This document shows, piece by piece, positions 17,080 to 27,891 of a DNA stretch of 51,559 bases (positions within the stretch are counted from its first letter, which is position 1; each line of letters begins with the position of its first letter). The DNA is from Clostridiales bacterium (lineage in GTDB: Bacteria > Bacillota > Clostridia > Lachnospirales > Bianqueaceae), in assembly GCA_024689505.1 (NCBI GenBank), contig JAILDJ010000032.1, positions 1 through 51,559 on the forward strand, given 5' to 3'. The notes under the pieces were generated by a model. The model was not told where the DNA came from and searched no databases. It saw only the letters and a program-made list of their open reading frames with translations. Made by a program: the position numbers and the translations under genes.

Positions 17080-17161
17080 TCCGTAGAAACAAAACGTTTC
17101 ATTAGCAGATTTGTACGAATTTAACAATAAAACATTGTTAAACATCCCGACTTTGTGCATG

Positions 17162-17190
17162 TTGACAATAGATGGGATCTATGGTAAGAT
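17162..17190 (+). promoter_or_regulatory. Promoter of the 17.2-17.7 kb RNA
   Basis: A perfect TTGACA (17162-17167), a 17-base spacer and TAAGAT (17185-17190). The expected transcript start is near 17197. There is no normal open reading frame downstream before the terminator at 17664-17703. Confidence 0.8.
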
Positions 17191-17209
17191 ATAGCCAACA
17201 AAGCAAGAA

Positions 17210-17238
17210 GGAGGACACGCCCGATGTACAATGAGTAA
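17210..17238 (+). other. SD-AUG motif 1 with mini-ORF MYNE
   Basis: GGAGGACACGCCCGATG: Shine-Dalgarno GGAGGA, then ATG 14 bases after its first G, opening a four-codon ORF (17224-17238, MYNE, stop TAA). The first of three motifs with the same spacing. Confidence 0.45.
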
Positions 17239-17472
17239 TGGTGGGATCGTAGATGATTGACTATGACTCCACCGTAATGATTGAAAAACAAATCAATCAC
17301 CAGACGGTCCGAAGAAGACCACATAGGTCTCGGCCATAGACAAGCATATAAACGTATCTGAACATTATTCGTTGTTTGGGAAAAATGGAGAAAAGACCGG
17401 AAGGGTCACAAACTCCACCAAGTGTAATGTCTTAGTTCGAATGTTTTGTCAAAGAAAGTGAATTCCCAAACA

Positions 17473-17510
17473 GGAGGACACGACCCATGGACGTAAAAGC
17501 TTCCTGCTAG
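17473..17510 (+). other. SD-AUG motif 2 with mini-ORF MDVKASC
   Basis: GGAGGACACGACCCATG, matching motif 1 in 15 of 17 positions. The ATG at 17487 opens a seven-codon ORF (MDVKASC, stop TAG at 17508-17510). The motif follows directly on the 3' strand of the 9-bp long-range stem. Confidence 0.45.
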
Positions 17511-17635
17511 TTAGACTCAGGTGCTATTTCACGTAAAGCGACATATCGCAAGGCAAAATCAATAAGCCACCAAAAAGAAGAATAAAGATACTGAGTCATA
17601 GCTGGCGAAACAGTCCAGAAAAAACAATTGAATAT

Positions 17636-17664
17636 GGAGGATCAGTCCAATGGATGATCGTTAA
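17636..17664 (+). other. SD-AUG motif 3 with mini-ORF MDDR
   Basis: GGAGGATCAGTCCAATG, with the same 14-base spacing. The ATG at 17650 opens a four-codon ORF (MDDR, stop TAA at 17662-17664) that ends exactly where the terminator stem begins. Confidence 0.45.
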
Positions 17665-17708
17665 AAGGCGGGAGTTGCTGAAGAGAAGAAGACTCCCGCC
17701 TTTATCGT
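17664..17708 (+). terminator. Terminator of the structured RNA
   Basis: A perfect 12-bp stem AAAGGCGGGAGT/ACTCCCGCCTTT (17664-17675 with 17692-17703) with a 16-base purine-rich loop, followed by ATCGTTT. Confidence 0.9.
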
Positions 17709-17876: not shown

Positions 17877-18521
17877 TCAATCTTCCAGGAAATCCAGATG
17901 GGGCATATCAGCAGGATCTCGCTCCGGCTGTTCATCGAACCGATGATTGCCGAAATAGTACTCCTCATCATGCTCGTTGATTTCGCGAAGCACCTTGCAA
18001 GGCACACCCACGGCGACGACGTTGTCCGGGATATCCTTGGTAACGACGCTGCCGGCGCCGATGACGGAATTCTTGCCGATGGTGACACCAGGCATGACAA
18101 TTACATTGGCACCCAGCCAGGCTCCATCCTTGATGGTGATCGGGAATGAATACATGCCGTCACCACGGTGTTTCGGGGAAATCGCATGGCCGGTGGTGCA
18201 GACCGTCACGTTCGGACCGAACATGACATAGTTGCCGATGGTGACTTTCCAGTCATCGATGATGGTAGCGCCCATATTGAAATAGCAACCATCGCCGATG
18301 GAGGTGTAGACGCCGGTCGTTACCTTGAACGGAGGTACGATCCAGACATGATCGCCGCACTCGCCAAACAGTTCCTTGCAAAGGTCATGACGCTCCTTAT
18401 TCGCATCCGCGGGCAGGTTGTTGAATTTCTCGACCAGACCTCTTGCGCGGTCCTGGATCGCCATGTTTTCTGCATCGTCCAGCCACATGTAGCCGGCTTT
18501 CATTCTTTCTTGTTCCGTCAT
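17877..18521 (-). CDS. Maltose/galactoside O-acetyltransferase-like protein
   Basis: A 214-residue left-handed beta-helix acetyltransferase of the LacA/Maa type, which acetylates sugars with acetyl-CoA. The N-terminal Mac segment MTEQERMKAGYMWLDD is followed by hexapeptide repeats (IVPPFKVTTGVYTSIGDGCYFN, VTIGNYVMFGPNV) and the conserved CTTGHAISPKHRG with the active-site His. The tail is acidic. AAAGGAGG lies nine bases before the ATG at 18521. It follows the M18 aminopeptidase gene by 27 bases on the same strand, so the two are likely cotranscribed. Confidence 0.9.
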   Translation of the reverse strand: MTEQERMKAGYMWLDDAENMAIQDRARGLVEKFNNLPADANKERHDLCKELFGECGDHVWIVPPFKVTTGVYTSIGDGCYFNMGATIIDDWKVTIGNYVMFGPNVTVCTTGHAISPKHRGDGMYSFPITIKDGAWLGANVIVMPGVTIGKNSVIGAGSVVTKDIPDNVVAVGVPCKVLREINEHDEEYYFGNHRFDEQPERDPADMPHLDFLED

Positions 18522-27741: not shown

Positions 27742-27814
<73 letters not shown>

Positions 27815-27818
27815 TGAT

Positions 27819-27891
27819 GGGCCGCTAGCTCAGTCGGTAGAGCATCAGACTTTTAATCTGGGTGTCGCGGGTTCGAATCCCGCGCGGCTCA
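27819..27891 (+). tRNA. tRNA-Lys (TTT)
   Basis: A 73-base cloverleaf four bases after tRNA-Phe: acceptor GGGCCGC/GCGGCTC with one G-U pair, D arm AGCTCAGTCGGTAGAGC, anticodon loop ACTTTTAAT (anticodon TTT), T arm CGCGGGTTCGAATCCCGCG. No CCA is encoded. Confidence 0.97.

Follow-up and report, generated by a model that had tools for sequence, protein, structure and literature searches.

A candidate structured RNA gene with repeated Shine-Dalgarno-like modules, restricted to a single genus of Clostridiales

The window analyzed here is a 51.6-kb stretch of DNA from a rumen bacterium of the Clostridiales. It holds an interval of 511 nt with its own promoter, for which homologues were found in two relatives, G003 and G002 (Table 1). 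The promoter, described earlier as consensus-like, is present as stated and conserved in both relatives. We placed the transcription start site about 7 nt past the -10 hexamer by inference, and the 3' end at or beyond the 3' hairpin. The preliminary description of about 510 bases lacking a normal open reading frame also held; no ORF was conserved in any frame between the three species, and the longest open stretches were 27-72 codons in varying frames. The downstream neighbour is a hexapeptide acetyltransferase gene (17877-18521) on the opposite strand. Since this gene is convergent, the RNA has no obvious target in cis.

Table 1. Coordinates of the features found at the locus in the window.
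Feature	Coordinates	Strand	Evidence or remark
Conserved upstream box AACGTTTCATTAGCA-N3-TTGTACGAA, putative regulator site	17093..17119	+	24/24 specified bases identical in three species
Inverted repeat TTTAACAAT-AAAAC-ATTGTTAAA, putative operator 5' of the -35	17120..17142	.	alignment
Promoter TTGACA-N17-TAAGAT, TG-extended -10	17162..17190	+	hexamer positions and 17-nt spacer the same in three species
Structured RNA, putative	17197..17707	+	511 nt; fold z -7.65, homologues in G003 and G002, Rfam blank
Module 1, GGAGGACACGCCCGATGTAC	17210..17229	+	20/20 identical in G003, 11/20 in G002
Mini-ORF 1, MYNE	17224..17238	+	codons from 17228 on in 5' arm of predicted stem P0
Predicted stem P0, 17228-17240 with 17363-17375	17228..17375	+	13/13 pairs in the window, 11/13 in G003, 9/13 in G002
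5' domain (model R2), predicted to fold as a three-way junction in which an invariant ACUCCA stays unpaired	17248..17371	+	P2 stem invariant in 3/3 species
Candidate long-range pairing GUAUCU 17354-17359 / AGAUAC 17586-17591	17354..17591	+	both hexamers occur once per RNA and do not vary among the three
Degenerate module copy lacking ATG, GGAGAAAAGACCGGAAGGGTC (GGAGGGCAGACCAAAAGG in G003, GGAGGGTAGACCGAAAGG in G002)	17387..17407	+	three species
Module 2, GGAGGACACGACCCATGGAC	17473..17492	+	20/20 identical in G003, 17/20 in G002
Mini-ORF 2, MDVKASC	17487..17510	+	TTG start in G002; stop in invariant stem
3' domain (model R1), predicted: CUAGUU/AGCUGG, GACUCAG/CUGAGUC stem, inner GCGA/UCGC hairpin	17507..17605	+	
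Module 3, GGAGGATCAGTCCAATGGAT	17636..17655	+	20/20 identical in G003, 16/21 in G002
Mini-ORF 3, MDDR (MDNR in G002)	17650..17664	+	alignment
3' hairpin, terminator-like stem, weak U-tract	17664..17703	+	three pairs changed on both sides

In each species the alignable block begins about 70 bases 5' of the -35, despite a differing upstream gene. The conserved upstream box had a single occurrence per genome in the three species when up to three mismatches were allowed, and therefore looks like a dedicated regulator site. In the putative operator, an A and its partner T are replaced by C and G in G003, leaving the dyad intact (one compensatory change), and only a partial dyad was found in G002. 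The placement behind parAB, which had been thought possibly to matter, was found to have no specific tie to the RNA, as G002 carries an ORF (L003 352-1284) between DUF4446 and the RNA. This ORF resembles a HAD-type hydrolase in sequence and was found at that position neither in the window nor in G003.

Homologues were found by BLAST among 58 relatives in the same genus only, namely in G003 (87%) and G002 (68%). The whole unit of upstream box, promoter, RNA and 3' hairpin was single-copy and present in 3/3 genomes of the genus with the locus assembled. A fourth member of the genus (G001) gave no match to the RNA, to DUF4446 or to a close M18 peptidase; since the two genes were missing too, the locus is probably missing from this assembly. 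The covariance model of the 5' domain (R2) found nothing credible outside the genus in 392 genomes of the order and 391 of the class, and that of the 3' domain (R1) nothing credible elsewhere in 96 relatives; these genome searches are samples, in which diverged homologues may be missed. With filters off, R1 found nothing at four DUF4446 and M18 loci in other genera, and among twelve loci of this type only those of the genus itself had a motif-rich intergenic region. A 17-mer scan of public genomes returned real homologues only in two contigs from rumen Clostridiales MAGs, RUG159 and RUG14172. These MAGs are uncultured, and their records are apparently those of G002 and G003; the remaining matches failed against model R2. 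Plasmid and phage records gave no match or merely fragments of 27-34 bases, three conserved words searched in IMG/VR gave chance matches or none, and a loose scan of the family genomes with a 20-base motif gave noise, mostly ordinary gene starts.

The motif GGAGGA-N3-G-N-CC-N-ATG was found exactly three times on the + strand, at the start of modules 1, 2 and 3, with no further exact match in the window. Three copies of this strict motif were obtained in 0/4000 dinucleotide-preserving shuffles of the 511-nt interval, and likewise in 0/4000 for the relaxed form GGAGG-N5..10-ATG. Between the window and G003 the three modules were identical at 60/60 positions, against 440/521 for the RNA overall. 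The fixed distance of 14 bases to the ATG, noted previously, was found in the window and in G003; motifs 1 and 3 of G002 have 15 bases instead, and a TTG replaces the ATG of its motif 2. Loss of the spacing in relatives had been listed in advance as an observation against the idea, and it does occur in G002, where the modules themselves persist. Aligning all GGAGG sites gave a wider unit, GGAGG-N3..7-CC-N2..4-GG, with three matches in the window (GGAGR allowed), three in G003 and five in G002, each number being reached in 0/1500 shuffles; these counts are descriptive because the pattern was defined after the sequences were seen. Six copies of GGAGG-N4..8-CC were found in G002, some of them lacking an ATG. 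In this species some 65-70 bases inserted in the 5' part (L003 1432-1500) add two GGAGG..CC copies, both ATG-less, as if the number of modules were free to grow. The predicted pairing with the anti-SD sequence was -9.3 to -12.5 kcal/mol per intact GGAGG and -6.4 kcal/mol for the degenerate copy in the window. Part of most GGAGG pentamers is buried in the predicted structure, and accessibility was mixed and inconsistent among species.

The predicted fold of the RNA in the window had an energy of -153.5 kcal/mol compared to -109.8 ± 5.7 kcal/mol for shuffled sequences (z -7.65), and the z-scores in G002 and G003 were -3.5 and -2.7, respectively. The 13-pair stem of the 3' domain can form in 3/3 species with one-sided variation only, and the inner hairpin of this domain has a compensatory change. 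The 9-bp stem proposed earlier (17373-17381 with 17464-17472) was found to be perfect in the window and to keep 8/9 pairs in G003; it is lost from G002 through a deletion of the 3' arm, and it competes with the longer predicted stem P0. A hand-drawn model of 81 pairs was formed in 90.9% of cells compared to 32-41% when slid by 1-3 columns, a value that is biased because the model was drawn from the same sequences. Four pairs, three of them in the 3' hairpin, were changed on both sides in the three sequences, compared to 0-1 in the slid versions. The shuffle control for the model was modest, with 19-33 of 500 shuffles reaching the observed value (score and percentage paired). The covariation is thin because there are only three homologous sequences.

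The interval had been described as closed by a strong terminator. The strong stem of the 3' hairpin was found, with a U-tract that is poor in the window and missing from G003. A canonical bidirectional terminator follows the hairpin of G003 shortly downstream (L002 1454-1481), which suggests a role for the conserved hairpin beyond termination.

No match to a known RNA family was found within 17197-17707 using Rfam 15 at gathering score or an E-value below 1, or permissively up to an E-value of 5, with ROOL, GOLLD, OLE, raiA, HEARO, 6S and RNase P included. The only weak matches fell in the downstream hairpin region outside these coordinates. The tmRNA of this genome is located elsewhere (G000:C246), as is a 6S-like match (G000:C262; 46.2 bits, just below the cut-off of 46.4), so both identities were ruled out for this locus. 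No RNA described in the literature searched shows such a pattern.

Altogether, the sequence analysis supports a discrete RNA gene that has a promoter to itself, is structured and apparently non-coding, and carries motifs conserved in relatives. We infer that it is transcribed, that it acts in trans and that its modules bind. Of the readings offered at first, a ribosome-binding or an ornate RNA may still apply. A genus-restricted stand-alone RNA, probably trans-acting, whose modules allow multivalent binding of one partner is the reading we tentatively prefer, at somewhat less than an even chance. The single-copy gene would give rise to a stand-alone RNA of about 510 nt from a regulated promoter, in which two well-folded domains would present several copies of the wider unit, each consisting of a Shine-Dalgarno-like pentamer and a potential tiny CC/GG hairpin. 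The partner may be a protein recognizing GGA-rich RNA or, on 30S subunits, the anti-SD of the 16S rRNA, and the RNA would sequester or scaffold it, with the conserved upstream box setting the conditions. This reading draws on the enrichment of the motif, the fold z-score, the module identity and the growing copy number including copies lacking an ATG, and also on the conserved promoter and upstream box, the convergent neighbour and the anti-SD pairing energies. The thin covariation in three homologues and the partly buried GGAGG pentamers argue against it.

It is rather improbable that the RNA is translated, with initiation at the three SD-ATG sites giving peptides of 4-7 residues. In that case translating itself, through ribosome occupancy or peptidyl-tRNA drop-off, would regulate folding or stability of the RNA. 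The three mini-ORFs read as first reported, and a start (ATG or TTG) with a nearby in-frame stop was kept at 9/9 sites in the three species, even where the spacer gained one base, for ORFs that are too short for codon statistics. The differences in ORF3 between the window and G003 preserve Arg and a stop. Against translation, the GGAGG-to-start spacing was 9-10 at the nine mini-ORF sites compared to 5-8 for 18 of the 19 protein starts that follow a GGAGG, in an approximate comparison set of mechanical ORFs with an SD from DNA of the genus. The ORF2 codons after the module drift (10/15 identical in G003 and 7/15 in G002, compared to 20/20 and 17/20 for module 2), some module copies carry no ATG, and the invariant stem accounts for the ORF2 stop. 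The ATG region of ORF1 lies beside and within the predicted long stem, which takes up the codons that follow. There is no co-directional gene downstream to control, and the polycistronic leader-peptide RNA that had been considered for this locus finds no support on these same grounds. In uORF and leader-peptide attenuators (PMC11109978) the SD and the start and stop codons lie within RNA structure, as is predicted here; unlike them, this RNA has no regulated gene downstream, its neighbour being convergent.

The repeats may instead be architectural, GGAGG pairing with CUCC-type segments within the RNA or in other copies of it to give a monomer or oligomer, as in ornate RNAs, which we consider rather improbable. 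In the hand-drawn model the invariant ACUCCA of the 5' domain is left unpaired, all three species retain UGGAG both in module 3 and in the copy lacking an ATG, and GUAUCU/AGAUAC offers a long-range candidate. The pairing of ACUCCA with UGGAG is likewise a candidate, lacking covariation; more generally such 5-bp pairings are short and without covariation, and there are only 2-3 CUCC sites per RNA for 3-7 GGAGG copies.

A dedicated ribosome-capturing RNA would be a folded RNA presenting several SD modules, at which several 30S subunits are docked or held simultaneously. It would serve storage, sequestration or localization, with no normal protein being made; we find this quite unlikely. That the interval is a decayed protein gene or a remnant of a mobile element is very improbable, for it does lack an ORF but has long invariant blocks, no conserved reading frame and a conserved promoter, and is single-copy at the same locus in three species. 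The CsrB/CsrC and RsmX/Y/Z sponges are structured, terminator-ended RNAs with repeated GGA sites and an upstream regulatory dyad, and the usual form of a CsrA site is an A(N)GGA hexaloop. Despite the likeness in repeated GGA motifs, structure and upstream dyad, a sponge for CsrA is hardly credible here, as no CsrA was found in four genomes of the genus and four of the family in which controls were detected, and as the modules differ from the hexaloop form and include CC and ATG.

The large ornate RNAs ROOL, GOLLD and OLE of bacteria are long, stand-alone and highly structured, and their function is unclear (PMC12286853). GOLLD is cited there as binding ribosomes in pull-downs, and OLE as having been proposed to sequester RpsU. 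The RNA described here would likewise be long, structured and stand-alone. Unlike them it is genus-restricted and chromosomal, lies away from tRNA arrays and prophage genes and carries SD-like repeats, and it did not match their Rfam models even at E-values up to 5. The smtA motif RNA is described as longer than 350 nt, found in one genus only and of unknown function (PMC11109978). Our RNA resembles it in exceeding 350 nt and in being confined to a single genus, and differs in its unrelated host, its far fewer representatives and its repeated GGAGG modules. Genus-restricted large orphan RNAs such as the smtA motif are thus already known, and the repeated SD-like modules are what is unusual here. 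If expressed, the RNA would be a new class of large bacterial non-coding RNA. Its modules suggest an RNA route to the translation machinery other than CsrA sponging, and being repeated they make the binding idea directly testable by pull-down and mutation. Two adjacent tRNA genes were found on the + strand of the window at 27742-27891, about 10 kb from the RNA.
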